From Halobacteriales archaeon YIM A00013 (GTDB taxonomy: Archaea > Halobacteriota > Halobacteria > Halobacteriales > Haloarculaceae), in NCBI GenBank assembly GCA_025041195.1, contig JAKCFM010000001.1, forward strand, positions 1,674,001 to 1,738,000: a stretch of 64,000 bases of DNA. Reading direction: 5' to 3'. This document shows, piece by piece, positions 12,068-25,135 of this stretch. Every line of letters begins with the position of its first letter. Position 1 is the stretch's first letter. A model generated the notes under the pieces. That model had not been told where the DNA came from. It saw nothing but the letters and a program-made list of their open reading frames with translations, and did not search any database. The translations under genes were made by a program, and so were the position numbers.

Positions 12068-12499
12068 ATGGCGATTCACCCCACAGCACAGATTCAGGAT
12101 TCGACCGTCGAGACCGAGCATGTTCGTGAATTTGTGACGGTGCACGATTCGACGGTGGCTGTGGATGCGCGGCTCTACGAGCGGGTGTCGGTCAAGAAAG
12201 CCACGATTGGACCGCACGTCGACATCAACGCCGGCAGCTATGTTGAAAACGCGGCGATTGAATCGAACGTGCAGATCGGCCCGAACGCGTCGGTTGTGGG
12301 CGTCACCCATCGGCTCAGCGAGGCGTCGGGGATGGAACACCGCAACGATCAGTTCGAGGAGATCGTTCTCGAAACGGGAGCGTTCGTAGGTGCGGGGGCC
12401 GTCGTTCTTCCCGGCGTTACGGTGGGAGCGAACGCCGTGATTGGGGCGAACGTCACCGTGACCGATGATGTTCCCGAGGGGGTTGTTATCCGTGGGTAG
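12068..12499 (+). CDS. Gamma-carbonic-anhydrase-like left-handed beta-helix protein
   Basis: 143 aa built of hexapeptide repeats ([LIV]-G-x4), for example IGPHVDINAGSYVENAAI, VQIGPNASVVG and VVLPGVTVGANAVIGANV. This defines the LbH/hexapeptide acyltransferase superfamily. A central loop with VTHRLSEASGMEHRNDQFE interrupts the coils, as in sugar-nucleotide acetyltransferases. The gene is short, and the zinc-ligand histidines of classical gamma-carbonic anhydrases are not clearly laid out, so an acyltransferase role is as likely. The start at 12068 gives the conserved MAIHPTAQI opening. Confidence 0.7.
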   Translation: MAIHPTAQIQDSTVETEHVREFVTVHDSTVAVDARLYERVSVKKATIGPHVDINAGSYVENAAIESNVQIGPNASVVGVTHRLSEASGMEHRNDQFEEIVLETGAFVGAGAVVLPGVTVGANAVIGANVTVTDDVPEGVVIRG

Positions 12500-12550: not shown

Positions 12551-12566
12551 CCCAGTGGTGCTCACC

Positions 12567-12650
12567 TGGTAATACGCTCGGTTGGTGTAGCCCGGCCAAT
12601 CATGCGGGCCTTTCGAGCCTGCGACACGGGTTCAAATCCCGTACCGAGCA
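12567..12650 (+). repeat. Left 84-bp direct repeat (possible attL)
   Basis: Identical to 17928-18011. It covers TGGTAATAC plus the whole tRNA-Glu gene. The bases immediately outside differ (C versus T on the left, CATAAC versus GTGGTT on the right). The repeats bracket the AT-rich island with the cyclase and S9 hydrolase genes, as expected for integration at a tRNA gene. Confidence 0.75.
12576..12650 (+). tRNA. tRNA-Glu (anticodon TTC), left copy
   Basis: 75 nt. The acceptor stem GCTCGGT pairs with ACCGAGC, with discriminator A at 12650. The anticodon stem CGGGC/GCCTG (one G-U) holds the loop CTTTCGA, giving anticodon TTC. The T arm is ACGGG-TTCAAAT-CCCGT. CCA is not encoded. An identical copy lies at 17937-18011. 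The shared sequence also includes 9 nt of 5' flank (84 nt in total). Confidence 0.95.
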
Positions 12651-12788
12651 CATAACAAATTCTTCACTTCTTAGTGTGGTAAGTTACTGAGTGGTAGTTC
12701 TAGTACTGTCGTGCAGTTGTGTATGGCGGTCGGATGCGATAGTCTACGAACCCTCACCAGTACTGTTCCTTTATTTTGGAGTATCTCT

Positions 12789-13385
12789 TCAGACTCCATC
12801 CGGTCGCCCGTAGTCAGCCAAGAAGGGTTCATCATCAATCACGACGAAGTTTTCTGCCCGAAGCTCTTGGAGGTTGAGCGGAAACATTGCCAGCTCCGCC
12901 GTGGCCCGCTGTAAAAGTGGACGTCCTTCTTCTTTTGGTAGCTCCGTGAGTGGTTCACCATATGGCATGATTAGCCATCGGAATCGACGCTGATGATGAT
13001 CTGGAACTGGGAGCAGCGGCCAATCGCCCGAGATACCGTGGCGATGCCATAGTACAGCTTCACGTTTATTTTGGACAAATCCGCTGGAGAACAGATCGTC
13101 TCCGAACCGGGCCAATTTTACGACATAGTTTGCGAGCGATGACTCGACGGGAAACTGAAGCACACACCGTGCAACACCGATGCCAACGAGATCAAAGCCG
13201 TCGTCAAGTAACGGTGATAGTATTGTTTGTTCACTTTCGTGGATTGTCGATCGTTCCTCACTATCCGGTGAGCAGCCATCTCGCACCGCCTCCTGATCAA
13301 GTCTGTCGGTACAGTAACACAGATCAGTCGCAATGCGATTGATTCTCTGTCGCTCATCCTCTGGGAGTAACCGTTTGGTGGACAT
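12789..13385 (-). CDS. Diverged kinase-like protein of the RiPP-like island
   Basis: 198 aa. Several features are laid out like a reduced protein-kinase fold: a strand with lysine (NYVVKLAR, Lys90), a hinge-like RFRWLIMPYGEPL (about 135-147), ENFVVIDDEPFLADYG with Asn179 and a DYG (191-193) in the place of DFG. A typical HRD motif and glycine loop are missing, so it may be a small kinase or a pseudokinase. A TATA box at 13406-13415 sits 25 nt upstream, so translation is probably leaderless. It is divergent from the 41-aa peptide gene; the start codons are 157 nt apart. A role in tailoring or immunity of the island's peptide is speculation. Confidence 0.55.
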   Translation of the reverse strand: MSTKRLLPEDERQRINRIATDLCYCTDRLDQEAVRDGCSPDSEERSTIHESEQTILSPLLDDGFDLVGIGVARCVLQFPVESSLANYVVKLARFGDDLFSSGFVQNKREAVLWHRHGISGDWPLLPVPDHHQRRFRWLIMPYGEPLTELPKEEGRPLLQRATAELAMFPLNLQELRAENFVVIDDEPFLADYGRPDGV

Positions 13386-13405
13386 ACACCATACTGAAGA
13401 ACGGG

Positions 13406-13415
13406 ATAAAATAAA
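13406..13415 (-). promoter_or_regulatory. TATA box for the kinase-like gene
   Basis: Minus-strand TTTATTTTAT centred 25 nt upstream of the ATG at 13385, the classical spacing for a leaderless haloarchaeal transcript. Confidence 0.6.
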
Positions 13416-13504
13416 TCATTTTAACAATATTGGTATCACAGAGATGGATGCCAGTGAATTTGATTTAGTGATATATAGAATACAATATCCAATAATGCAA
13501 TAGA

Positions 13505-13515
13505 TTTTTATATTA
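13505..13515 (+). promoter_or_regulatory. TATA box for the 41-aa peptide gene
   Basis: TTTTTATATTA ends 27 nt before the ATG at 13542. Transcription would start at or just before the ATG. The box is separate from the divergent kinase-like promoter. Confidence 0.6.
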
Positions 13516-13541
13516 CATGTGCGTGTATAGTACAGTAGACA

Positions 13542-13667
13542 ATGGGTAACGATAATAATGTCCTCGATTCAGGCACAGGCAAAGCACCAGAATACAACAA
13601 ATCTGATACTGTGAGTCTCATCTCTTTGGCCCAGAAAGGGATTAAAGATAAGCTCATACGAAAGTGA
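13542..13667 (+). CDS. 41-aa peptide, candidate RiPP precursor
   Basis: The peptide starts MGNDNNVLDSGTGKAPEY and ends GIKDKLIRK. It has its own TATA box at leaderless distance and lies 79 nt upstream of the lasso-cyclase-like gene on the same strand. In that position, a tiny gene before an asparagine-synthetase-like cyclase is normally the lasso-peptide precursor. However, the usual leader motif (Y-x2-P and a penultimate Thr) and a core beginning with Gly and carrying Asp/Glu at position 7-9 near the C-terminus are not visible. The only such spacing is Gly11 to Glu17, which would leave a 10-residue leader. It contains no cysteine. Its role is inferred from position and promoter only. Confidence 0.5.
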   Translation: MGNDNNVLDSGTGKAPEYNKSDTVSLISLAQKGIKDKLIRK

Positions 13668-13746
13668 AGACTCCAACAGTATTCGATTATAAAATACCAT
13701 ATCTTTACTAGTACATCTTAGCAACCTCTGATTTGTTTTCCATAAT

Positions 13747-15573
13747 ATGAAGAGTGAATTTCATGCATGTATTGATCACCAAGAGAGGACTACAGAACCT
13801 TGCTTTCGTGAATGTTGGATAAAAGATCGACTGAAAAGAGAATCCATCCGTGAGGGGAATGTATCTCTTCATGTCGATAAGTATGAGCACCTTCCAATTT
13901 TGCACGAATTGTATGTGACCGACAACGAATTGCTCATCGCCTTTTCGGGCGAGCTACACGATATAAGCCATGATTTCCATCGCCAGTCAGAAATATCATT
14001 CACTACAAGAACGACGTACGACATTCTTGCAGTTGCATATCGAACGTTCGGCTGGTCATTTCCCAAGCATTTAATCGGTGATTATCACGTTCTCATAGCC
14101 GACTATTCACAAGATCGACTACTCGCTGGCCGAGATCACGTAACAGCAGATCCACTCTTCTTCGCAGTAAAGGACGGTGCAACGTTGGTGAGCACCGATC
14201 TGAGTGCCCTAGCTAACGAGATTCAGGCCGATGTGAACGAAACATATCTGGGACAGCATCTGACCGGTACCATCGAATCTCCTCGTAAAACGTTTTATGA
14301 CAACATATACAGAGTTCCACCTGGTTGTGTCGTGGTGTCGTCACCCGACACGACACAAGTGAGGCGATACTATCATCCCCATCCTGATAATCGCACTACG
14401 TATCGATCCAAATCCACCGAGGAGTTGGCAGAGACTTTGCGAGAGTTACTTGAAGACGCTATCGACTGTCGAACCATTCAGACGGAGACAGTAGGGGTAT
14501 TTATGAGCGGTGGGGCCGATTCGACAGCCCTTGCTACCATCGCTAACGATCAATATTCGTCGCCCTCTCTGAAGACGTATTCCTACACGTATCCATCTAC
14601 CACTGCAATAAACGAGAATCAAGGCATTGAGGCCGTCGTCAGCGAAAAAGGACTCCACAACGAACAAATCAGCGTCGACGATTACTGGGTGCTGAAGGAT
14701 AAGACACTCTACGAACGAGCGTGGGCCTACGCCCCTGCTGTCGATTCTCTACTCCAACCGAAACATGAATTGATACAACGAGCAGCAGCTGATGGCGTAG
14801 GAACGGTGCTTGTCGGTGACAACGGTAATATGCTGGATGGTTATCGAATATCAATAGCCGATGCGTTCGCCACCGGACAGTATCTTGATGCGATTAAAAC
14901 AGCCCAGGAAGATCCAACATACACGACTCTGGCCTGTCTAGTACAGTACGGTCTTTTTCCGCTCTTGTCAATCGGCGAAGTAGAGTATCTACCTCCAAGA
15001 CAGGTTCAATCGCCCGTAAGAGATCGGCTTTCCGACCACATACGAACTCAGGTGGAGGATATTCGGCGATCGCCCCGGCGATGTAAGTCACTCCAAGCTC
15101 ACAGTGACCAAGCTCTCTATCGTGTGCTCACCTCCCCGATTTTCGACTACCGATACGACATTTTCCGTAAGATAGCTAAGTATCACGGGGTAAACGTCAT
15201 TGATCCCTATCAAGACCTCCGCCTTGTTGAGTTTGTGTTCGATCTTCCGCTGACAGCGAATCTCCAACGCGGATATAACAAAGCTATCTTCCGCCGTGCA
15301 CTGTCTGACGTATTACCGAAACAGATCCTTACTCGACGCAAAACAGACCGCGTGGAGGAAGAGGTAGCGGACGGGTTGCGCCAGGAAATAGAGTATCTCG
15401 GATCACTTCTTTCGGAGTCATATCTTACTGACTACGGTATTGTCTCCGATCGTCGTTCAATCCCTGACCTACACCAAGCTATAGACGCGTTCGGGTCACT
15501 CGAAACGGCTGATGTAGATCTATGGCAGCACATATCTGCGCAAGCATGGCTTGAACAGCGACAGAGCAAGTAA
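13747..15573 (+). CDS. Asparagine-synthetase-like, lasso-peptide-cyclase-type protein
   Basis: 608 aa. The N-terminal part (about 20-200) is a glutaminase-fold domain with HLIGDYHVLIADYSQDRLLAGRD, but the protein starts MKSEF and has no Cys2, so it cannot hydrolyse glutamine. The C-terminal synthetase domain has the ATP pyrophosphatase loop SGGADS (254-259). Loss of Cys2 with retention of the ATP loop is the hallmark of lasso-peptide macrolactam synthetases (McjC type), which adenylate an Asp/Glu side chain and close the ring onto the N-terminus. The gene sits between a 41-aa peptide gene and an S9 hydrolase. A TATA-like TTATAAAAT at 13687-13695 could also drive it alone. An asparagine synthetase paralogue with another amide-forming role is the alternative. 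Confidence 0.7.
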   Translation: MKSEFHACIDHQERTTEPCFRECWIKDRLKRESIREGNVSLHVDKYEHLPILHELYVTDNELLIAFSGELHDISHDFHRQSEISFTTRTTYDILAVAYRTFGWSFPKHLIGDYHVLIADYSQDRLLAGRDHVTADPLFFAVKDGATLVSTDLSALANEIQADVNETYLGQHLTGTIESPRKTFYDNIYRVPPGCVVVSSPDTTQVRRYYHPHPDNRTTYRSKSTEELAETLRELLEDAIDCRTIQTETVGVFMSGGADSTALATIANDQYSSPSLKTYSYTYPSTTAINENQGIEAVVSEKGLHNEQISVDDYWVLKDKTLYERAWAYAPAVDSLLQPKHELIQRAAADGVGTVLVGDNGNMLDGYRISIADAFATGQYLDAIKTAQEDPTYTTLACLVQYGLFPLLSIGEVEYLPPRQVQSPVRDRLSDHIRTQVEDIRRSPRRCKSLQAHSDQALYRVLTSPIFDYRYDIFRKIAKYHGVNVIDPYQDLRLVEFVFDLPLTANLQRGYNKAIFRRALSDVLPKQILTRRKTDRVEEEVADGLRQEIEYLGSLLSESYLTDYGIVSDRRSIPDLHQAIDAFGSLETADVDLWQHISAQAWLEQRQSK

Positions 15574-15584
15574 CAATACATTTT

Positions 15585-15597
15585 ATTTATAATTTGT
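15585..15597 (+). promoter_or_regulatory. AT-rich promoter candidate before the S9 hydrolase gene
   Basis: ATTTTATTTATAA-like stretch directly after the cyclase stop, about 75 nt before the ATG at 15668. It would give a short 5' leader. A weak AGAGGAAG lies immediately before the ATG. Confidence 0.35.
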
Positions 15598-15667
15598 GAG
15601 TGCGTCAAAGTATCACATTTACTCTACTGCTCCGTACTACTAACTCGCTGTCTGTGGTAGAGGAAGT

Positions 15668-17446
15668 ATGACACAGTCAGCGCTTGATATCTTTTCTTCC
15701 CTTCCATCGTTCGCGGCTCCGACGGTACTTCCCGAGGAAGAGGCTATCGCATACTGGTGGTCTGTGGATGACACGATCACTCTCCGGATCCATGACCTAT
15801 CCCAGGACACAATCAATATCATCCCCCTCGATCGTCATTCACTCACATTAGAAGGAGAAGAACCCCTACATTGGATCGGTGATGGGTTTCTCATACAGAG
15901 CGATCCCAATGTTTATTTTTGCGAGTGTGACGGCAGTGTCGAGACTGTTTCGTTTGGTGCTCCCGAGACGTACACGTATATTATCGACATCGATTCCAAG
16001 ACACATCGTGTCTTGTATACCAACTACGATGATCCGTGGACGCTCCGACTTTCGGAGGCCGATGGAAAGCAGTCAAAAGTGCTGACAGAGCATCCCGAGC
16101 AAAGTGGCCACGCAGGGTTTAGTCCGGATGGACAGTGGCTTGCCTATCGTGAAAATCCCACCGAATCGTTTGGGGCCGGTCGGATCGTCATTACCGATCG
16201 GGCTGGCGAGCAAGTGAGGACAGTTAATATCGGGGATGCCTCAGCACGGACTCGCCTCCGAGGTTGGCACCCAGACAGTCAACGGCTGCTCATTGATGAT
16301 CGTTCAACGGGCTGGTATCGTGTCGGCCTCCATGACTGGCAAGTCGAGGACACCACGTGGTTCGGGGACGGCGAGTACAACGAATATCCACTCACGATCA
16401 CATCTGATGGTAGCCAACTCATTACAGTTCGCAGTCACGCCGGCCGTAGGAGTGCGATCGTTTATTCTATCCACAACCCAGCAGATGGCTGCCAATTTGA
16501 TCTCCCCGAAGGTGTGGTGGATCGGACGCCTGTACAGCCTCCCGGCATGACGTTTGCGTCCGATATGGTCTATCTCGTTCACGAAACGGGGACACGCCCG
16601 CCTCAGCTTCTTCAGTATGACCTTGAGACGGACACCATTACGGTGCTCATCGACACCGCGACGTCAGCACTCACTGCGTGTTCACTCGTTGAACCCGCAC
16701 ATGTAACCTACGATGCCCCCGATGGACAATCGATCAATGCCATACTACACCGAGCATCAGAAACTCCTTCGCCCGCCGTCGTGGTCGTGCATGGTGGACC
16801 AACAACGGCTGTTACTTGCGGTTTTGACCCATTTGCGCAGTATCTCGTATCCGAGGGATACACAGTCCTTCAGCCGAACTATCGTGGATCAACTGACCAG
16901 GATCGTGGATTCGAGCGAGCCATTAAGGGCGATCTCGGCCGGGGCGAGGTAGATGATGTTGCAGCTGGTGGCCAGTGGCTGGCTGAACAGCCGTGGGTTG
17001 ATGATAACCGGCTTGCAGTCTTTGGGCATTCTCATGGTGCGTACAATGCGGCCCTACAGGCGGTCAGTTATCCCGAATTATGGAGGGTCGTTATCCCCGA
17101 AAATGGATATCTTGACGCCGTGGCAGTGTTCAACGAGCCAAATCTCTATGCACAGCGTCGCATCATTGATAACCAGACGTGTGAAACGACTAAAGCGTAT
17201 CTCCAGTCCGTAAGCCCGATTCACCGTACAGCAGACGTTGGATGCCCGGTCTGCATCATTCAAGGAGAGGACGACGCCACTGACCAAGCTAGAGCGTTTG
17301 CCGACGGGCTTCGAGAACGAGGTTGGACAGCTGGTGAACAGTTTCGACTCGAAATTATTGAGGGAGAAGGGCACGTTATTCAGAATAAGGCCCAGCTCTG
17401 GGGGCTTATTACCGATATACTTGAAATATATGTCGGATGCTATTAA
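15668..17446 (+). CDS. S9 prolyl-oligopeptidase-family hydrolase, candidate lasso isopeptidase
   Basis: 592 aa. The N-terminal beta-propeller (about 1-350) has WSVDDTITLRIHDL-type blades and GFSPDGQWLAYRENP. The C-terminal alpha/beta-hydrolase domain has HGGPTTA (oxyanion), NYRGSTDQDRGFERAIKGDL, the nucleophile in FGHSHGAY (Ser455), the acid in GEDDATDQ (Asp535/536) and the base in EGEGHVIQ (His569). There is no signal peptide, so it is probably cytoplasmic. S9 enzymes of the same architecture (AtxE type) are dedicated lasso-peptide isopeptidases in some bacterial clusters. The adjacency to a lasso-cyclase-like gene makes that role worth testing here. A general acylaminoacyl-peptidase is the alternative. 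Confidence 0.75.
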   Translation: MTQSALDIFSSLPSFAAPTVLPEEEAIAYWWSVDDTITLRIHDLSQDTINIIPLDRHSLTLEGEEPLHWIGDGFLIQSDPNVYFCECDGSVETVSFGAPETYTYIIDIDSKTHRVLYTNYDDPWTLRLSEADGKQSKVLTEHPEQSGHAGFSPDGQWLAYRENPTESFGAGRIVITDRAGEQVRTVNIGDASARTRLRGWHPDSQRLLIDDRSTGWYRVGLHDWQVEDTTWFGDGEYNEYPLTITSDGSQLITVRSHAGRRSAIVYSIHNPADGCQFDLPEGVVDRTPVQPPGMTFASDMVYLVHETGTRPPQLLQYDLETDTITVLIDTATSALTACSLVEPAHVTYDAPDGQSINAILHRASETPSPAVVVVHGGPTTAVTCGFDPFAQYLVSEGYTVLQPNYRGSTDQDRGFERAIKGDLGRGEVDDVAAGGQWLAEQPWVDDNRLAVFGHSHGAYNAALQAVSYPELWRVVIPENGYLDAVAVFNEPNLYAQRRIIDNQTCETTKAYLQSVSPIHRTADVGCPVCIIQGEDDATDQARAFADGLRERGWTAGEQFRLEIIEGEGHVIQNKAQLWGLITDILEIYVGCY

Positions 17447-17927
17447 ATAGCACCAAAGTGCAAGTTTGTCACTATCTAGCTGAGTAATATTGAGAAGTGA
17501 CCTGGTTGATAATATTCTCGTGAAAAGATGCTTGCAGACATGATCACTGAGAGCTATGGAACTGACTAGGAAGAACCCAGCGAACATTTCGAAATCGCAT
17601 CTTTCAGGTCATCAAGTTCTCCCGACAACTTCGAGGTCGATATCCGCAGTAGCCATCCCACCGGTGTCAATTTCGCCGGATGACTGATTGAATAGCCGTT
17701 GTGATTGTTTGACTGCTGAGACGTATCGACAAAGATCTTCGCGGTGATCAAGCGCGTGGTACCATCCGTCCCCACTTCCGATATACCCCGCATCTCGAAA
17801 TCGCATGTGGGTGGTTATGGCAGTTCAATGTGGATAGCAAGTTCCTCAGTAGTTTTGTAACCTGTCCGCAGGAGCTTTACTTCAGTCCTGGTGATCGCTT
17901 CAAACCAACTACGGTAGTTCTGTAACT
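17447..17927. other. Island right end, no firm gene
   Basis: 481 nt between the S9 gene and the right repeat. A minus-strand frame at 17612-17806 (64 codons, opening MRFRDAGYIGSGDGW) has an ATG and reads protein-like. It has no TATA box at the right distance and no recognisable motif, so I leave it as a possibility. Confidence 0.35.
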
Positions 17928-18011
17928 TGGTAATACGCTCGGTTGGTGTAGCCCGGCCAATCATGCGGGCCTTTCGAGCCTGCGACACGGGTTCAAATCC
18001 CGTACCGAGCA
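17928..18011 (+). repeat. Right 84-bp direct repeat (possible attR)
   Basis: Perfect copy of 12567-12650. The sequence at -24 to -32 from the tRNA (17905-17913) is not A/T-rich, so no promoter was carried along. It is followed by GTGGTTTTT, which could be the original tRNA terminator. Confidence 0.75.
17937..18011 (+). tRNA. tRNA-Glu (anticodon TTC), right copy
   Basis: Identical in all 75 nt to the copy at 12576-12650, so it can fold into the same cloverleaf. It lacks a TATA box at the expected distance, so it may be silent or rely on read-through from the island. Confidence 0.9.
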
Positions 18012-18584
18012 GTGGTTTTTCGAGTGAACAACGTGGATAGCTCTGTTCTTGGGATTGGGTGGCGACTGCTGGGAGGTCTTACGATAACGATCAGTGGACC
18101 GTACTCGATCGTTCAGTAAATTGCTTCTATGGGTCTTTATGAATCTCGGAGGACTGCTGGGTCTCGAAGCAGTCAATTGTGGTTCCCACAGCGATTGGAT
18201 CGGGTCAGTTGGAGACGATATCGACAGCGCCATTCATTGACGTGTACGTGTCGCCGTTCCACTCGTTCCAGCCCAGCAGCTCCCGCTTGGAGATATTGAG
18301 ATTCATTAGCAGATGGTCCTTCGTGATCAGCGTCGAGACCCGTACTATGTGCCTTCTGAGGGGGCGCGTGACCTTCATTGGTATCAGCAGTCAGGTCCAT
18401 AGACACAGCAATCTCCAAATCAACTACGGCCACAATCTACGGAGTGACATCGGTGTGATCACGCCCAGATCATTGCTGTTCTGTCAGTTCACGTCACCGT
18501 CACAGTGTGGCCCTGAAACACGATGACAAAGTGAGCGGCGAACGAGAATCGGGAGATAACAGCGCAGAATTCCGCTTGTTATTT
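18012..18584. other. Region right of the island, no firm gene
   Basis: 573 nt. A T5 tract at 18016-18020 may terminate the tRNA transcript. A minus-strand frame at 18205-18378 (57 codons, with LLGWNEWNGDTYTSMNG near its end) reads protein-like and has an ATG, but shows no promoter or motif I recognise. Otherwise nothing was seen. Confidence 0.35.
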
Positions 18585-19304
18585 TCAGGAGAGTTCGAGG
18601 AGCTGGTGAGCCAGTTCCCGAGGCATCGACACCATTGGCCAATGTCCCGTCTCTAGTTCGTGGAGCTTCCACTCTCTCTGGTCGCACAGTTGTCGAATCG
18701 TATCGAGGATGGAGTCGTCCATTCCGTTCTGGGTGCAGAGGATGTAGCTGGTGGGTAGTGCTGCAGTGGCCGGATTACCGACGTTCACCGACTGTTTGAA
18801 CGTGTTCAGTGGATGCGGAACAGCGTTTTCCCGCAGCCACTGCGTGTCCTCATCCGAGATATCCACCCAGCCCGGATGGGAATCTGGCAACGGCCAGCCG
18901 CCAGCATGGTCTTTCGCGGCACGTTCCATCGCGTCCCATTCGTCAGGGGGATAGAACGCAGATGCCGAAATGGGTTCGTCATCCATCGGAACCAGTGCAT
19001 CCAGGTAAATAACGTGTGCGAGCCGTTCAGGAACCCGTTCTGCTACACCAGTCACTACCAGCCCAGCATAGCTATGTCCGAGGAGGATAACGTCCGTGAG
19101 CTCGTTGTATTCCAGCGTATTCACAATGTCAGTGATGTGTGTTTCGAGGCTGATCTCTCGGCACATGAGGTGTTCTCGTTCACCAAGTCCAGTGAGCGTC
19201 GGAGTATAGACGTCATGGCCTTCATCGCGGAGCAACGGAGTGAGATACTTCCAGCACCAGCCACCAAGCCATGCACCGGGGACGAGAACGAATTGTCGTG
19301 CCAT
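18585..19304 (-). CDS. Alpha/beta-fold hydrolase (EstC/salicylate-esterase-like)
   Basis: 239 aa. VLVPGAWLGGWCWKYLTPLL at the N-terminus supplies the oxyanion region. The nucleophile lies in LLGHSYAGLVV (Ser about 79) and the C-terminal base in LETGHWPM. Together these match the esterase/hydroxynitrile-lyase-like group (plant methylesterases, bacterial EstC). The substrate is unknown. The ATG at 19302-19304 gives the conserved MARQFVLVPG start; an in-frame ATG at 19313 is possible. Confidence 0.8.
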   Translation of the reverse strand: MARQFVLVPGAWLGGWCWKYLTPLLRDEGHDVYTPTLTGLGEREHLMCREISLETHITDIVNTLEYNELTDVILLGHSYAGLVVTGVAERVPERLAHVIYLDALVPMDDEPISASAFYPPDEWDAMERAAKDHAGGWPLPDSHPGWVDISDEDTQWLRENAVPHPLNTFKQSVNVGNPATAALPTSYILCTQNGMDDSILDTIRQLCDQREWKLHELETGHWPMVSMPRELAHQLLELS

Positions 19305-19430
19305 GGTTCTCAAACGGGTGTGAAGGTGATATAGTTCTTCGTGCCAGAATAAAAGTGAGTTCGATAATGGCAGTATTTATTGCATCTCACAAAGGAAACG
19401 TATAATATTCCATATAGACATTTCTTACAT

Positions 19431-19895
19431 ATGGCGAACAATAGAATGGGATCTATATCTGATCACATTAAAAAAACTCCGTGGCATCTGTGGTTTGTGG
19501 CGCTGTTTTTTCTTCTACTGAATATCTTCGGCCTATATGATTATATTATGGTACTTGATCTCAATGAAGCATACTTCAAATCACAAAACTTCGGATCACC
19601 CATTATCACTTATTTCACATATTATCCACTGCTACCACGGATATTCTGGACGATAGGTGTTACGAGCGGCGTGATCACACCTATTCTGATTCTGATGCGA
19701 ACCCGTTGGGCAGTGTGGCTTGCATTCGTTTGTGTTATTTCTCTAGGATGCCTACATATTATCACGTTTGGATTTATGAACCGGTGGAACGTGTTTGGGC
19801 CGTGGCTATCTCTTTTCGATACATCGATTTTCCTGTTGACTGTCGGACTCTATCTCTATTGCCGGCGAATGTCTGCTCGTGGTGTGTTACAATAG
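19431..19895 (+). CDS. Four-helix membrane protein, 154 aa
   Basis: Four hydrophobic helices (about 20-42, 62-86, 93-116, 122-146) with short loops and a basic C-terminus (CRRMSARG). The DNA is AT-rich relative to the flanks. I do not recognise the family; the spacing resembles small uncharacterised DoxX/DUF-type membrane proteins. The ATG at 19431 is chosen because the first helix begins shortly after it; an upstream in-frame ATG at 19380 adds a non-hydrophobic tail. Confidence 0.6.
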   Translation: MANNRMGSISDHIKKTPWHLWFVALFFLLLNIFGLYDYIMVLDLNEAYFKSQNFGSPIITYFTYYPLLPRIFWTIGVTSGVITPILILMRTRWAVWLAFVCVISLGCLHIITFGFMNRWNVFGPWLSLFDTSIFLLTVGLYLYCRRMSARGVLQ

Positions 19896-20210
19896 ATTTT
19901 TTCTGAGGAGTATTTCGCAGGGGAGTCCGTCGTATATATGTAGTCCAGATTAGATGTATTGAAGTGATGGACTCGAACACGGCGGCTGGATCTTTCGATT
20001 CGAGCGTGGCGACGACATCGACGAGTTCAAAACTACAGAGGTGGCCGAGAGTGACGCGCTCTCGCTTGGTCAAAAAAAAAACTTTTGAACGTGAGAATAA
20101 CCCGGGAAACACGATAATCAGACTGAGGAAAAAGGTGAATGACTTTCTCTTATCTTATATATCCCTAATAATCGCGAGTTTATTATTATTTGCTATGCAT
20201 CTGTACTACT
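19896..20210. other. AT-rich intergenic stretch
   Basis: 315 nt with an A9 run near 20073-20081. A minus-strand stretch around 19950-20070 (SFELVDVVATLESKDPAAVFES) reads like part of a protein but has no intact reading frame of useful length. It is probably gene debris. Confidence 0.35.
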
Positions 20211-20621
20211 ATGGAATGGTCACCACTCACACCAGAATTACTTGTTTCAGATTATCAGAAGAGCCTCTCGTTTTATGTTGAAACGCTTGGGTTTACCGTT
20301 GAGTATGCCCGTGAAGATCCATTGTTCGCCTATCTTTCCATAGAAGGTGCTCAGCTCATGATTGAAGAGCGGTCGGATAACGAATGGTGGGTAACAAGTG
20401 AGCTGAGCCATCCATATGGAAGAGGAGTGAATTTTCAGATAACAGTCAGTTCTATTGATCCGTATGCAAACCGCCTCATGGATGATGGCTACCAGTTATT
20501 TGAAGAGATTCGGGAAGAGTGGTATCAGGTAGATGAAGTTGAACGTGGGAATAGACAATTCTTGATTCAAGACCCAGATGGGTATCTTCTCCGGTTTATG
20601 GAACACATAGGCACGCGTTGA
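20211..20621 (+). CDS. VOC/glyoxalase-bleomycin-resistance family protein
   Basis: 136 aa, a single vicinal-oxygen-chelate unit made of two beta-alpha-beta-beta-beta modules. It opens with PELLVSDYQKSLSFYVETLGFTVEY and ends with QFLIQDPDGYLLRFME, the classical VOC start and end. Members bind a divalent metal and act as lyases, dioxygenases or drug-binding proteins; the substrate cannot be read. An upstream in-frame ATG at 20190 would add 7 residues. Confidence 0.8.
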   Translation: MEWSPLTPELLVSDYQKSLSFYVETLGFTVEYAREDPLFAYLSIEGAQLMIEERSDNEWWVTSELSHPYGRGVNFQITVSSIDPYANRLMDDGYQLFEEIREEWYQVDEVERGNRQFLIQDPDGYLLRFMEHIGTR

Positions 20622-20891
20622 GTGGTTGCACTCCGTGGGGGGTCATTGCGATTGGCGAAGTACGTACTGACGAGCGGACATACCTACCATCGTTGGTCTA
20701 TGACGCACAGCATTAGCCCACAACAGATAGTAACAATCAAACAGACAATAAATTTCTACCAATTAAGTATATCTAAGTAATTATAATTGCAATATCCTGA
20801 TGGCTGAATTCGTACAATTGTCAAAGAGAGTGCTTATAGAGACTGTTCTGATTGATCACACAACGCCATTGAAATCCAACACATACGAAAC
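20622..20891. other. AT-rich spacer upstream of the microprotein operon
   Basis: No gene supported. It is notably AT-rich at 20740-20800. Confidence 0.4.
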
Positions 20892-20898
20892 TTTATAA
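20891..20898 (+). promoter_or_regulatory. TATA box of the microprotein operon
   Basis: CTTTATAA centred about 32 nt upstream of the ATG at 20927. It would give a near-leaderless transcript. Confidence 0.55.
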
Positions 20899-20926
20899 CC
20901 CAGTGGGTTGGCACAATCAATTGGGA

Positions 20927-21007
20927 ATGCCAGTCCCCGATGTGGGCGCGCGTATCAAATCGCGCCGGGTGTCCATAGCACCCGACGCTGGGGTTCCCAT
21001 ACGGTGA
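20927..21007 (+). CDS. 26-aa leaderless peptide at the head of a small operon
   Basis: Basic peptide beginning MPVPDVGARIKSRRV. The ATG lies at near-leaderless distance from a clear TATA box. The stop at 21005-21007 is followed after 8 nt by the next start. It could be a real microprotein or a regulatory leader peptide. No family is recognised. Confidence 0.4.
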   Translation: MPVPDVGARIKSRRVSIAPDAGVPIR

Positions 21008-21015
21008 GGTAACCC

Positions 21016-21153
21016 ATGAAGGGAAATGCACCGCGGTACTGTAATCCTGTCGTATCGTCAATGACTACCACACGGTGTGCTCGCTGTGGCCAGCCGGTGG
21101 CTCGCCAACGGGCGCACGCAACGGGCTGTCCATCGTGGAGGGTTGGCTCGTGA
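21016..21153 (+). CDS. 45-aa zinc-finger microprotein
   Basis: Cys21-x2-Cys24 with His34-x3-Cys38 makes a plausible single zinc site (RCARCGQPVARQRAHATGC). GGTGAGG at 21003-21009 is positioned as a Shine-Dalgarno element for the ATG at 21016; an internal in-frame ATG at 21061 would give 30 aa. The stop overlaps the next gene as GTGA (21150-21153), a sign of translational coupling. Small CxxC proteins are widespread in haloarchaea and their viruses; the function is unknown. Confidence 0.5.
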   Translation: MKGNAPRYCNPVVSSMTTTRCARCGQPVARQRAHATGCPSWRVGS

Positions 21154-21674
21154 GTCTCCCGCAGTTCAGCTTCCGGACGGTAGATGGTCAGGTCAGAACG
21201 CTTGCGGGGATCGAGGATCGTGAGGAACTCTCCAGTGCGGAGTTGCATCACGTCGTGGACATCGCGGAGAACTGCTGGTGTCGGCCCTGTCAGTCAACGG
21301 AGTGTCGACACAGTCGTCAGGTTGAGGAGGTGCTGGCGATCGCTGATCTGAGCGAGCGCTCTCGCGGTGGTCCGGATTCACTTCCGTCGCTCGATCGAAT
21401 CACCCGGTTTCGATCGCAGGGCGAGACGATCTACACCGCCTGGTTCGACAATGATGCTCGGTTGCGGGCGCATGAGCAACGGAGCGGGGACGTTACGTTG
21501 TTGGCGTTTTCTCCGGATCGGCCGGAGGATCCTGCACGGGCGCAGACGCAGGATGAAGCTGTCTCGGCTGCGAGCTGTTTGCTAGAGGCGGTGGTTCCGT
21601 TCTGTGAGGCTCGATCAACTGAAGAACTTCCCGCGATCCTCCAGTTGTTGGTTTCTCCAGCAAACTGCGAATAA
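21150..21674 (+). CDS. 174-aa protein with SWIM-like zinc motif
   Basis: Starts with GTG, overlapping the upstream stop by 4 nt. Near residues 42-54 the pattern C-x-C-x7-C-x-H (CWCRPCQSTECRH, with an extra Cys47) matches the SWIM-type zinc finger CxC...CxH, a DNA- or protein-binding motif. The remainder is acidic and helical, with a C-terminal part rich in Ala/Glu. No catalytic motif was seen. Third and last gene of the microprotein operon. T6 tracts at 21743-21748 and 21757-21762 follow. Confidence 0.55.
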   Translation: MSLPQFSFRTVDGQVRTLAGIEDREELSSAELHHVVDIAENCWCRPCQSTECRHSRQVEEVLAIADLSERSRGGPDSLPSLDRITRFRSQGETIYTAWFDNDARLRAHEQRSGDVTLLAFSPDRPEDPARAQTQDEAVSAASCLLEAVVPFCEARSTEELPAILQLLVSPANCE

Positions 21675-21742
21675 CCTCTACGGAGGAATTTTTCGAAACC
21701 GCGTGTGGCTAGAATCACCCACCGCGAGCGCAGCGAGCGGCC

Positions 21743-21762
21743 TTTTTTCATCAACGTTTTTT
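21743..21762 (+). terminator. Double T-tract terminator after the microprotein operon
   Basis: Two T6 runs 8 nt apart, the second inside a small ATCAA/TTGAT inverted repeat. Consistent with archaeal oligo-T termination. Confidence 0.5.
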
Positions 21763-21770
21763 GATCGAGC

Positions 21771-21787
21771 GGTTGCCGAAGGCAACC
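21771..21787. repeat. Perfect 7-bp hairpin
   Basis: GGTTGCC, loop GAA, GGCAACC. It sits between the rightward operon and the minus-strand T6 at 21795-21800, and may belong to a bidirectional terminator. Confidence 0.5.
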
Positions 21788-21814
21788 CGAGATTAAAAAA
21801 GGTTGGGCAGTGTG

Positions 21815-21859
21815 ACCACAGACCCCCAATACCCCCTGAACCCCCGGGTGGTCTGTGGT
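21815..21859. repeat. 10-bp inverted repeat flanking three C5 runs
   Basis: ACCACAGACC (21815-21824) and GGTCTGTGGT (21850-21859) are perfect inverted repeats with a 25-nt spacer. CCCCC occurs at 21823-21827, 21832-21836 and 21841-21845, exactly 9 nt apart. On the minus strand a T6 follows the stem at 21795-21800, so one use could be termination of leftward transcripts. The regular G runs on the minus strand also suggest a protein-binding or G-quadruplex-prone element. Confidence 0.5.
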
Positions 21860-22041
21860 ATATGACTGTTAGATGATCGAAAAACATCACATCAGCCACT
21901 ATCCGAGTGCAATGGATCTCAGTGACTACTCTTCAGACGATTGTGGCCCTCTAACCGAACAATCTCGTCTGAAGCTTGTTCAAAAGGGAGGAACGAGGGT
22001 GTAAGCAAACGCACTACCTTCCAGTAGTAAGCGAGATACCG
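21860..22041. other. Gene-free stretch
   Basis: No gene or repeat supported between the inverted repeat and the small minus-strand frame at 22042. Confidence 0.4.
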
Positions 22042-22251
22042 CTATCCATTGCGAACCGCATAACGGTCACCGGAATAGTAGCTCACGACAACCGTGAGCA
22101 AATTTGCCACACCAACACCGATGGCCACCAAGCCAGCTATCGAACGTCTATACTGCACCGCGTGCGAAATGACCTTCACGAACCCACAGACGACCCGAAC
22201 GACGTAATGGCGAGTTCTTACGACGATTCCAGGTGGCTCCAAACCGAGCAC
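22042..22251 (-). CDS. Possible small membrane protein, 69 aa
   Basis: A GTG-started frame directly downstream of the helicase gene on the same strand. It contains two hydrophobic stretches (YVVRVVCGFVKVISHAV and IAGLVAIGVGVANLLTVVV) separated by basic residues, a plausible two-helix topology. There is no ATG and no convincing TATA box at the right distance. It could be chance. Confidence 0.28.
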   Translation of the reverse strand: MLGLEPPGIVVRTRHYVVRVVCGFVKVISHAVQYRRSIAGLVAIGVGVANLLTVVVSYYSGDRYAVRNG

Positions 22252-22309
22252 CGACCTGGACGGGTTTATCTGAATGACAGTCAGCCAGAAAACCCTCCAA
22301 TCGCCTCAC

Positions 22310-25135
22310 CTACCAGAACGCCTTCGTTCTGGCATACTGCTGCTCCTGGGCGAGAATATCCCGGTAGAAATCGTCCTCGTTCTCGCGGAGCTTCGCAATA
22401 ATTCGCGCGGCGTTGTGCGGCCCGACACCCCGAGCAGCGAGCGCAATCACTGCCTGCTTACCGTGGGCTTGCACCAGACTCGCGGACTGATAGGCCCGCT
22501 TTGTCATCTTCTCCTGCTCGTCATCCTTCTCGTTTGCTGTCACCGCATCGATCACGTCATCCGCCCACGGATTGAGCGCGGCGATCTGCGTCGATTCACA
22601 GAGCGGACACTGTGGCTGCTCGCGAACACGTTTGACAGACTGTTTCCGCTCGAACTCCTGGCAATGAAGACAGAACAACAGAATCCGATCCTCCTGAATC
22701 CGCTCTTTGACCGTCTGAATAACGCTCGCATCAGCGTTCTCTGGCGTGAGTAACTCCCGTTTCGAGGATCGACCACCAGTCCCGATTGGCGTCCGTCCGG
22801 AAACGGTCTCGACGCCGAGCGCACCCGATTGAATGCGTTCCAACACGTCAGCCGTCCGTTCCACGTCGAGCTCCTCGTATAACACCGCACGGACGGCTTC
22901 ATCATACACCGGCGTCTCTGACAGCGCATCGAGCAACCGAGTGCGACCGATTGAGCCCGATCCACGCCAGCGCTTGAGCGCACCAAACTTGCCGGCAACC
23001 TGCGCGAGCATGAACTTCAACACATCCGAATTTTTCAACGCGAGCTCGATGATACCGGCGACGTGGGCTGGCTCGGTCGTTTCGAGCAGCTCCACAACCG
23101 TATCCCGACTGACGCCACGCGGCAGCTCGAATTCGATCCGATACGGATCGGTGTCCATCCCAACGGAAGAGCCGGTCTGCTGGCCAATCAATGCGGAAAG
23201 CACCCGACCAAGCGTCTCATTGACCGTGTGACCGAAACAGGCGTTGAGTACCATCTCGCGACCACGGGACTCAATGACGAGCGTGTTGGCGTCGGGGAGC
23301 GCCTGCGTGTGTCGCTCTAGCTGTTTGAGCGCCTGCCCTGCAGTGTGGTCATCCGTCAGATACCGTTCACAGAGCCACGCTGCAACCGCCTCCATCGATT
23401 CACCCGCGTCGAACTGGTCCCGGAGGGCCCGCCTGAGTGAACCAACATCCTGCGCGACGGCGTACGGCACCGGAATCTCCTTGCCGGTCCAGGAGGGCAC
23501 CTCACCGCCCGGATCCTCGATCGGTGACACCGTCACCGATCCGTCCTCCTCATCAACCTCCACGATCCGCCACATCTCACCCTGCTGAATGAACACCTCG
23601 CCCGGCTCTGCAAAATTGACGACGAACTTCTCATCCAGCGTGCCAATCTGGCGACCGCTCGCCACGTCGTCAACGGCGAACGTCTCTTCGTCAGGGATCA
23701 TCGAGAGATTCTCATAAAAATACTGCCACGTGCCGCCGGATTTTTCAAGCCGGTCGGCGGACTCCTCAAGCCAGATGAGCCGATTGTTCGACAGCTCGCG
23801 AACGATCTCCCGGAACGTCGACTCATCGAGCGACGCAAACGGGTACGCGCGGGTGATGATCTCATACGCACGCCGAGCACTGATCTCGCCGTGACCCATC
23901 AACAGCCCGGTGATCTGATTGGCAACCGTATCGAGACTCCCCTCGTGGATTGGCGTCGGCTCGACTGCACCGCGTTTTGCTCGCTCGGCGATCACGAGCG
24001 CCTCGAAGGTATCGTCCGGCCGTGTTGTGATGATTGTTCCGTGCGAGCGCTCGTCTCGATGATGGCCAGCCCGGCCAACCCGCTGGAGCAATCTGGAGAC
24101 CTCCCGCGGGCTGGAATACTGTATCACGTGATCAATCCGACCCACGTCGATACCGAGCTCCATCGAAGAGGTACACAACAGCGCATCGAGTTCGCCGGCT
24201 TTGAACCGGTTTTCAACGTCGATACGCGCCCGTTTCGAGAGCGAGCCGTGGTGAACGCCAATGTTGGCGTCGATCGCTTTGAACCGCGAACCGAGCGCTT
24301 CTGCCGTCTGTCTGGTGTTGACGAAAATGAGCGTCGACTCGTTTGCCGCGACGATCTCATCCATCGCGCGGACGTGACTTGCCACGTCGGCTTCCGTCAT
24401 CAGCTGGCCGGCGAGTCGTTCGTCCTCTGACGTGATTTCAGGCGTCGTAACCGTGAGCGAAAGATCACTCCCGGCATTAATCTCGACGATTGATACGGGG
24501 CGATTGCCGGTCAGAAACGCGCCAACGGTGTCGGGATCGCCAACGGTCGCCGAAAGCCCAATCCGCTGGCTCTGGCCCGCGAGATCGCGGAGGCGCTCCA
24601 GCGCAATCGAGAGCTGCGCACCGCGCTTCGAATCAGCGAGTTCGTGGACCTCATCGACGACAACGTGGTCGACCGTCGACAGCGCACGACGGAGCTTCGA
24701 GCCAGTGAGCATCGCCTGGACGGTCTCTGGCGTGGTAACGAGCACGTCCGGGGGATCGTTCGCCTGTTGGGTTCGGCGATATCGGGTCGTATCACCGTGA
24801 CGAACGTCGATGTCGAGATCGAGTTCATCACCCCACCAGTCCAGTCGATCGCGCATGTCCCGGTTGAGCGCGCGCAAGGGTGTGATATAGAGCGCACCGA
24901 TCCCTTCACGGTCGCCTGCGTCCACGAGCGCATCGAACACCGGGAGCATCGCGGTTTCGGTTTTGCCAGTGCCAGTGGGAGCAATGATGAGCGCGTGGGC
25001 GCCAGTCGCAAGCACCGGAATAGCGCGTTGCTGGGGTTCCGTTGGCGTCTGAAAGCCGCGTTCAGAAAGCACTGCGCGAACCGTCGGCCCCAACTCCGTA
25101 AACGCATCCACCCCGCCACCAGACTGGCGATCCAT
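22310..25135 (-). CDS. Lhr-like superfamily 2 ATP-dependent helicase
   Basis: 941 aa. The RecA1 domain has Q-motif residues in TPTEPQQRAIP, Walker A APTGTGKTE, DEVHEL (motif II) and SATVGDP (motif III). RecA2 carries FVNTRQTAEAL and the motif VI region QRVGRAGHHRDE. A winged-helix and Lhr-core (DUF1998/DEAD-assoc-like) region follows. The C-terminus has a CLHC...CPLC zinc pair (about residues 835-865) and a helix-hairpin-helix-like end, AARGVGPHNAARII. Lhr-core helicases unwind branched DNA and are linked to repair. The start at 25133-25135 (MDRQSGGG) is preferred over upstream in-frame codons. Confidence 0.88.
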   Translation of the reverse strand: MDRQSGGGVDAFTELGPTVRAVLSERGFQTPTEPQQRAIPVLATGAHALIIAPTGTGKTETAMLPVFDALVDAGDREGIGALYITPLRALNRDMRDRLDWWGDELDLDIDVRHGDTTRYRRTQQANDPPDVLVTTPETVQAMLTGSKLRRALSTVDHVVVDEVHELADSKRGAQLSIALERLRDLAGQSQRIGLSATVGDPDTVGAFLTGNRPVSIVEINAGSDLSLTVTTPEITSEDERLAGQLMTEADVASHVRAMDEIVAANESTLIFVNTRQTAEALGSRFKAIDANIGVHHGSLSKRARIDVENRFKAGELDALLCTSSMELGIDVGRIDHVIQYSSPREVSRLLQRVGRAGHHRDERSHGTIITTRPDDTFEALVIAERAKRGAVEPTPIHEGSLDTVANQITGLLMGHGEISARRAYEIITRAYPFASLDESTFREIVRELSNNRLIWLEESADRLEKSGGTWQYFYENLSMIPDEETFAVDDVASGRQIGTLDEKFVVNFAEPGEVFIQQGEMWRIVEVDEEDGSVTVSPIEDPGGEVPSWTGKEIPVPYAVAQDVGSLRRALRDQFDAGESMEAVAAWLCERYLTDDHTAGQALKQLERHTQALPDANTLVIESRGREMVLNACFGHTVNETLGRVLSALIGQQTGSSVGMDTDPYRIEFELPRGVSRDTVVELLETTEPAHVAGIIELALKNSDVLKFMLAQVAGKFGALKRWRGSGSIGRTRLLDALSETPVYDEAVRAVLYEELDVERTADVLERIQSGALGVETVSGRTPIGTGGRSSKRELLTPENADASVIQTVKERIQEDRILLFCLHCQEFERKQSVKRVREQPQCPLCESTQIAALNPWADDVIDAVTANEKDDEQEKMTKRAYQSASLVQAHGKQAVIALAARGVGPHNAARIIAKLRENEDDFYRDILAQEQQYARTKAFW

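Follow-up and report, generated by a model that had tools for sequence, protein, structure and literature searches.

A putative leaderless lasso-type peptide cassette in a Halocatena genome

Known pathways to lasso peptides, which are ribosomally synthesized and post-translationally modified peptides (RiPPs), need a leader, a RiPP recognition element (RRE) protein, and a leader peptidase. Could a cyclase make such a peptide with none of them? The question is raised by a 64,000-nucleotide stretch of contig JAKCFM010000001.1 from Halobacteriales archaeon YIM A00013 (hereafter, the window), in which positions 12789 to 17446 had been predicted, from the letters alone, to hold a lasso-type gene set: a 41-amino-acid (aa) peptide, an asparagine synthetase homologue without the glutaminase Cys2, an S9 hydrolase, and a kinase-like protein. 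All four genes are present at these positions, and the details of the original prediction, including the loss of Cys2, the SGGADS motif, and the catalytic residues of the S9 enzyme, were confirmed. The probable product of the cassette is a leaderless lasso-type RiPP. As far as gene anatomy goes, this variant appears to be new, and the comparison of sequences across loci gives it solid support.

The cyclase and its relatives

The enzyme at the center of the cassette is encoded as follows.
13747..15573, + strand: Cys2-less asparagine-synthetase-fold macrolactam cyclase P0001, 608 aa

P0001 starts with MKSEFHAC, so that position 2 is not Cys, and SGGADS is kept at residue 254. Hidden Markov models agreed with a lasso-type assignment in rank but not in score: the top NCBIfam match was the lasso cyclase model NF033535, yet its 186.7 bits fall below the curated cut-off of 525. 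The asparagine synthetase model TIGR01536 gave 153 bits (cut-off, 267). The cyclase of a paeninodin-type cluster from Priestia (L144), a member of the same cyclase family, likewise lies under the NCBIfam cut-off (388.8 versus 525 bits).

A maximum likelihood tree of 43 rows, several of which (including LL_L050 and two bacterial rows) were flagged for long branches and composition bias, united 15 cyclases, P0001 among them, in one branch (support, 100/99); this branch falls on the lasso side of the family (100/98) and is separate from the AsnB group. This 15-member clade is sister to the canonical lasso cyclases and lies outside Cys2-bearing AsnB, as the original prediction had anticipated. The tree position and the missing Cys2 rule out P0001 as a true AsnB. 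The AlphaFold model (predicted local distance difference test [pLDDT], 79; predicted template modeling score, 0.84) is AsnB-like throughout. In VIA-align comparisons, which gave Z scores of 25 to 28 across about 440 to 520 residues, it matched TsnB9 (Z, 28), beta-lactam synthetase (Z, 27), and AsnB (Z, 26). P0001 shares the overall fold and the SGGxDS ATP motif with these enzymes but differs from them in lacking the glutaminase Cys, in having a peptide gene alongside, and in its separate branch from AsnB.

A scan of genomes gave matches in Actinarchaeum halophilum YIM 93972 (99%) and Halocatena pleomorpha (51 to 52%), and a search of genome contigs with query A1 found matches in these two only. 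Among 391 genomes drawn evenly from the class, none held a closer relative of the window cyclase, and viral contigs searched with A1 and A4 gave distant AsnB-like matches alone (18 to 30% identity). More distant Cys2-less cyclases are present in the source genome and in other haloarchaea. On the Halocatena salina plasmid NZ_CP096021.1, one clade cyclase goes under the name asparagine synthetase B, and the annotation as listed shows no feature for its peptide gene; the PLSDB tables are incomplete.

Peptide genes at the clade loci

The peptide gene of the window and its parts are the following.
13542..13667, + strand: precursor peptide gene, 41 aa, leaderless, with a proposed ring Gly2-Asp9 (Gly1-Asp8 once Met is off)
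13505..13514, + strand: TATA-like element TTTTTATATT of the peptide gene, ~30 nucleotides (nt) 5' of the ATG
13545..13568, + strand: codons of the proposed 8-residue ring GNDNNVLD, suggested by a pattern common to ten peptide families
13602..13664, + strand: C-terminal part SDTVSLISLAQKGIKDKLIRK, a proposed follower that resembles the H. pleomorpha peptide and has analogous C-terminal stretches elsewhere

The encoded peptide, MGNDNNVLDSGTGKAPEYNKSDTVSLISLAQKGIKDKLIRK, has an in-frame stop two codons 5' of its ATG. The TATA-like element upstream bears out the predicted promoter, and such elements also precede the other peptides in the set. The peptide is 100% conserved in YIM 93972. A homologue, MGDKKKSKHDAGRGKTKEYDKAPDRRSVVTLTRQAVKNKLFK, stands at the equivalent place in H. 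pleomorpha, where the gene order of peptide, cyclase, and S9 gene is kept; GxGKxxEY[ND]K is common to the two peptides.

Homologous loci were expected to carry a small peptide gene, and all 15 clade cyclases lie at peptide-bearing loci. The genes (~40 aa) mostly adjoin the cyclase and form ten families, that of the window and nine others; at L047 and at L023, two cyclases have one peptide in common. We compared all small open reading frames (ORFs) between orthologous loci with no pattern required, and this unfiltered comparison gave conserved peptides for three further families: MSKGDSGTDSED... (L047/L023), MSGKGNITEQKD... and MSETGPHTEQKD... (L048/L087), and MGQKMSTPPDS... (L063/L086). The peptide of L046, MGTDHVKADGQYG..., lies directly upstream of its cyclase. 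In the unfiltered families, residue 2 is G, S, or T and, once Met is off, an acid stands at position 8 or 9. At four loci outside Halocatena, a filtered search gave one plausible ORF each close to the cyclase (MAYTGTEPDGG..., MGIGFYPAYDGTYFQYNY..., MGDYRGSSDSC..., and MGGACGCTSDS...); at L088 and L089, a few other ORFs pass the filter as well, and these lie in G+C-rich, apparently noncoding stretches. Assuming Met removal, 14/14 peptides have G, A, S, or T at residue 2 and D or E at core position 8 or 9. When each peptide was shuffled, the whole pattern arose by chance in 7 to 13% of cases per family; treating families as independent, the product of these probabilities is 8e-11 for the ten families and 7.5e-6 for the five found unfiltered.

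The pattern also held at a locus outside the set from which it was drawn. Profile A2, built from 14 clade cyclases without G424:C8, found that protein at 619 bits, whereas the best canonical cyclase reached no more than 414 bits. Within 5 kb, the G424 locus has exactly one ORF that passes the filter, MGLWLTGTDQDGRVQAFILSAGDDEDETAPEEVKHQLR (MGLWLTGTDQDG...), which immediately precedes the cyclase gene, and the locus thus fits the prediction made from the pattern. No further clade member was present in the G424 family or in an even draw across the phylum.

These data bear on whether the enzyme might instead act on a small molecule, as an AsnB-like side branch with unrelated small ORFs nearby. 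Beta-lactam synthetase is a close fold neighbor and one clade member carries the automatic asparagine synthetase B annotation, both of which would suit such a role. Peptide genes at every clade locus and the outcome at G424 speak against it, as does the rarity of such ORFs near control genes: among 255 genes of at least 300 aa in the fetched loci, 27 had a pattern ORF nearby, 24 of them at clade or canonical lasso-type loci (in part counted via neighboring genes) and 3 elsewhere. We consider a small-molecule substrate very improbable.

The C-terminal halves of the peptides are alike within subgroups, as in PPEEIKELFELE (L046), PPKDVEDFIRTRR (L089), and APEEVKHQLR (L128), or in VSLISLAQKGIKDKLIRK (window) and SVVTLTRQAVKNKLFK (H. 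pleomorpha). Two peptides, from L065 (GIGFYPAYD-GTYFQYNY) and L128 (GLWLTGTD-QDGRV), resemble a lasso ring and tail.

Absence of leader, B1, and B2, and a possible route to the product

The reading frame 5' of the ATG closes within 7 codons in 9 of the 14 peptides and within 20 codons in 13; the exception is L047, whose ortholog L023 closes after 6 codons. Since in-frame stops lie so close upstream, the clade peptides leave no room for a leader. YxxP precursors with the T at -2 leader motif were sought at the clade loci, and no convincing one was seen at any of the 14, while a precursor with a YxxP leader is present at each of the six canonical haloarchaeal loci that were examined (for example, MSRESNDTYESPKVTEFGSVESLTESDKVGTGEDEYSGATSLTGSVV). 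NCBIfam models recognized 0/6 clade peptides and did recognize the canonical leader and B2 at L049, a locus that passes the B2, leader, and cyclase models as well as Pfam PqqD.

We then considered whole genomes, with the Pfam models of the B2 leader peptidase (PF13471; also modeled as NF033537) and of the B1 protein PqqD (PF05402). Both families were detected in the positive control G331 (PF13471, 50.8 bits; PF05402, 78.1 bits) and in G010, G011, G014, and G030. The source genome gave no PqqD match and, for B2, just a 23-bit partial PF13471 match in a 737-aa reading frame; most relatives have a match of this kind. PF05402 had no match in G000, G001, G005, G036, G041, G324, and G424, where a divergent RRE is still possible; weak PqqD matches (33 to 34 bits) in G003 and G004 are on contigs without the clade loci of those genomes. 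The lack of McjB-like and RRE proteins noted at the locus thus extends to the genome as judged by family models, and the suggestion of a reduced or different archaeal variant goes further than first guessed, to a precursor with no leader at all.

Canonical haloarchaeal loci (L049, and L145 from Halopiger xanaduensis pHALXA01) resemble the clade loci in having a Cys-less AsnB-fold cyclase beside a small precursor gene and a peptide with an acidic acceptor and a small first residue. They differ in having the YxxP leader (NF033521), a PqqD-type B1, B2, an ABC transporter, and an HprK-like gene, whereas leader, B1, and B2 are all missing from the clade loci. The paeninodin-type cluster L144 also encodes B1 and B2. 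Canonical loci L049 to L064, with PqqD, B2, an ABC transporter, and an HprK-like gene, are widespread in several haloarchaeal genera, and a core of the type [DN]K[VIH]GxG[ED][DE][EQ]YS is common to their precursors.

How, then, might the window peptide mature? We propose that translation yields the 41-aa peptide with no leader at its N terminus. Methionine aminopeptidase removes Met before G, A, S, or T, and here it would take off Met1 and expose Gly1. With a dead glutaminase site, no ammonia would be available from glutamine, and an amine of the substrate is therefore the likely nucleophile. The cyclase would use ATP to activate the Asp8 side chain (Asp9 of the ORF), and attack by the amine of Gly1 would then close a macrolactam of 8 residues, perhaps with the tail threaded through it as in lasso peptides. 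The last ~20 residues may be a follower recognized by the cyclase, in place of the leader, B1 (the RRE), and B2. The S9 enzyme could then trim the follower or open the product, and the kinase-like protein would be an accessory. The complete scheme, a one-enzyme leaderless haloarchaeal lasso system with an N terminus set by methionine aminopeptidase, a follower-guided cyclase, a threaded product, and neither RRE nor leader peptidase, is plausible, and we advance it tentatively.

Maturation could also follow the canonical direction, with the first ~10 residues as a short leader cut by an unrecognized protease, perhaps the S9 enzyme, to leave, for example, GTGKAPEYNK with a 7-residue ring Gly11-Glu17. 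This would explain the conservation of GxGKxxEY[ND]K between the window and H. pleomorpha, and a simple scan gave inner ring options in 12/14 peptides. For L048 and L087 the scan gave no such option, S9 genes are missing beside L046, L050, L065, L088, L089, and L128, and no clade locus has the YxxP or T(-2) leader motif; on balance a short leader is improbable. A less remote alternative is that the product is branched-cyclic and not a lasso, through an unthreaded macrolactam or another amide such as a Lys-Asp bridge. With B1 and B2 missing, no known helper of folding is left, and the fold neighbors include beta-lactam synthetase and the hydroxyamidotransferase TsnB9, which form amides in a single step. 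The clade is, in contrast, sister to lasso cyclases, an N-terminal residue paired with D or E at 8 or 9 is lasso ring geometry, and the L065 and L128 peptides have a lasso-like ring and tail, so that we regard an unthreaded product as unlikely, though less so than a short leader.

Several points weigh against a leaderless, follower-guided lasso peptide. In family 1 the alternative ring G11-E17 (GTGKAPE), which would need a protease, is conserved too, as GRGKTKE in H. pleomorpha. Four families (L050, L065, L088, and L089) were chosen with the pattern as a filter, and the L063/L086 peptide is placed beyond a divergent gene. Acidic residues are common in haloarchaeal proteins, and D or E at position 8 or 9 is for this reason weak evidence by itself. 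Follower sequences are similar solely within subgroups, and S9 genes occur at some loci only, being absent from the six listed above. The partial PF13471 match in G001 (model positions 53 to 97) is barely over the cut-off at 27.8 bits. Finally, even a leaderless core was reportedly not processed in vitro without B1 (2026 review, PMC13352647), and a cyclase acting alone would accordingly be unprecedented.

If the leaderless reading is true, the clade is a natural one without leader, RRE, or leader peptidase, in which one could ask how a cyclase folds its substrate alone, and it could offer a minimal tool for making such peptides. The loci suggest a stripped-down route to ring or lasso peptides in haloarchaea. 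Because the precursors match no curated model tried and the annotation of at least one cyclase reads asparagine synthetase, the system is likely overlooked by genome mining that depends on a leader, RRE, or B2. A search of the literature on leaderless or follower-guided lasso peptides, archaeal lasso cyclases, and methionine aminopeptidase found no such system in the papers inspected, and a prior description is still possible. The source genome, Actinarchaeum halophilum, and H. pleomorpha offer directly testable predictions.

The S9 hydrolase, the kinase-like gene, and the tRNA-Glu setting

The remaining features of the cassette and its borders are the following.
15668..17446, + strand: S9 (prolyl oligopeptidase family) hydrolase P0002, complete Ser-Asp-His
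12789..13385, - strand: kinase-like protein P0003, 198 aa, pathway membership uncertain
12564..12650, + strand: left 87-nt direct repeat with tRNA-Glu(TTC) (ARAGORN, 12576-12651)
17925..18011, + strand: right 87-nt direct repeat with tRNA-Glu(TTC) (ARAGORN, 17937-18011)

Does the S9 enzyme turn the product over, as an AtxE2-like isopeptidase would? Such a role is compatible with a leaderless lasso-type product. AtxE enzymes are propeller-hydrolases of the prolyl oligopeptidase family (PMC9266682), and P0002 resembles AtxE2 and SpI isopeptidases in having a propeller and an S9 hydrolase with a triad (Ser455, Asp535/536, and His569, aligned with acylaminoacyl peptidase 1ve6) and in adjoining a cyclase. 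S9 genes also pair with cyclases of three families. This pairing is confined to Halocatena loci, P0002 scores far under the cut-off of the isopeptidase model NF033523 (26.1 versus 400 bits), and its closest solved structures are acylaminoacyl peptidases, so that the predicted AtxE-type assignment holds for the triad and fails for the model. Trimming of the follower is an equally good fit, and we view isopeptidase activity as possible but doubtful. The three S9-associated families (L048/L087, L047/L023, and W/L003) share [EDQ]Y[DN] ~8 to 10 residues after the proposed ring acid, possibly a recognition site. At L086, a truncated S9 remnant (positions 1802-2131, - strand) is ~76% identical to the P0002 C terminus; it adjoins an APH-like gene, and its cyclase is missing.

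Kinase companions are known in paeninodin-type lasso clusters (PMC9266682). P0003 differs from these in having no HprK match: it matched nothing in Pfam or NCBIfam, and the HPr-kinase-type domain (PadeK-like) was not found. It has a weak phrog_4301 match and, from a model of pLDDT 65, weak similarity to the protein kinase fold. As a core part of the cassette it was rejected, as it does not adjoin the peptide and cyclase genes of H. pleomorpha and a copy with 82% identity occurs in G005 without a cyclase. The kinase-like gene, noted at first as an unusual companion, has no conserved partnership with the cyclase.

P0003 is also homologous to the C-terminal domain of propeller-kinase fusions adjoining LanM. 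Besides a LanM (PF13575 and PF05147) and an APH-family kinase, one class II lanthipeptide-type locus (G000:C3, ~80.7 to 87 kb; L140 5712-12126) has a Cys-rich 86-aa ORF ending SSSTCKSTACGGKSCH and a 542-aa protein in which an S9-type propeller is fused to a P0003-like domain; a related set is found in G005 (L141). With APH-family kinases also beside two cyclases (L063 and L086), kinase-like proteins recur in Halocatena RiPP loci, and P0003 is not tied to this cyclase.

PADLOC gave no match, PHROGs gave just families of unknown function and a weak QueC-like match, and no integrase was seen among the cassette genes. The two repeat copies around the cassette, which the original prediction had overlooked, are 99% identical and 5361 bp apart. 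By kinship, the source genome belongs to Halocatena. Full-length tRNA-Glu is present in one copy in four other Halocatena genomes (G002, G003, G004, and G006) and in two copies in G000 and G001. The G003 tRNA flanks match window positions 12281-12474 and 22313 onwards, and the G003 site looks like the empty site; relative to G003, ~9.7 kb is inserted after tRNA-Glu (window 12651-22310). Because G005 has a second, partial tRNA-Glu copy 51 kb away, tRNA-Glu seems to be an integration site within the genus. The G+C content of the cassette is 0.41 to 0.53, versus 0.59 to 0.60 for the flanks. Given the duplicated tRNA repeat, the apparent empty site in G003, and this lower G+C content, the cassette was probably acquired at a tRNA-Glu site.

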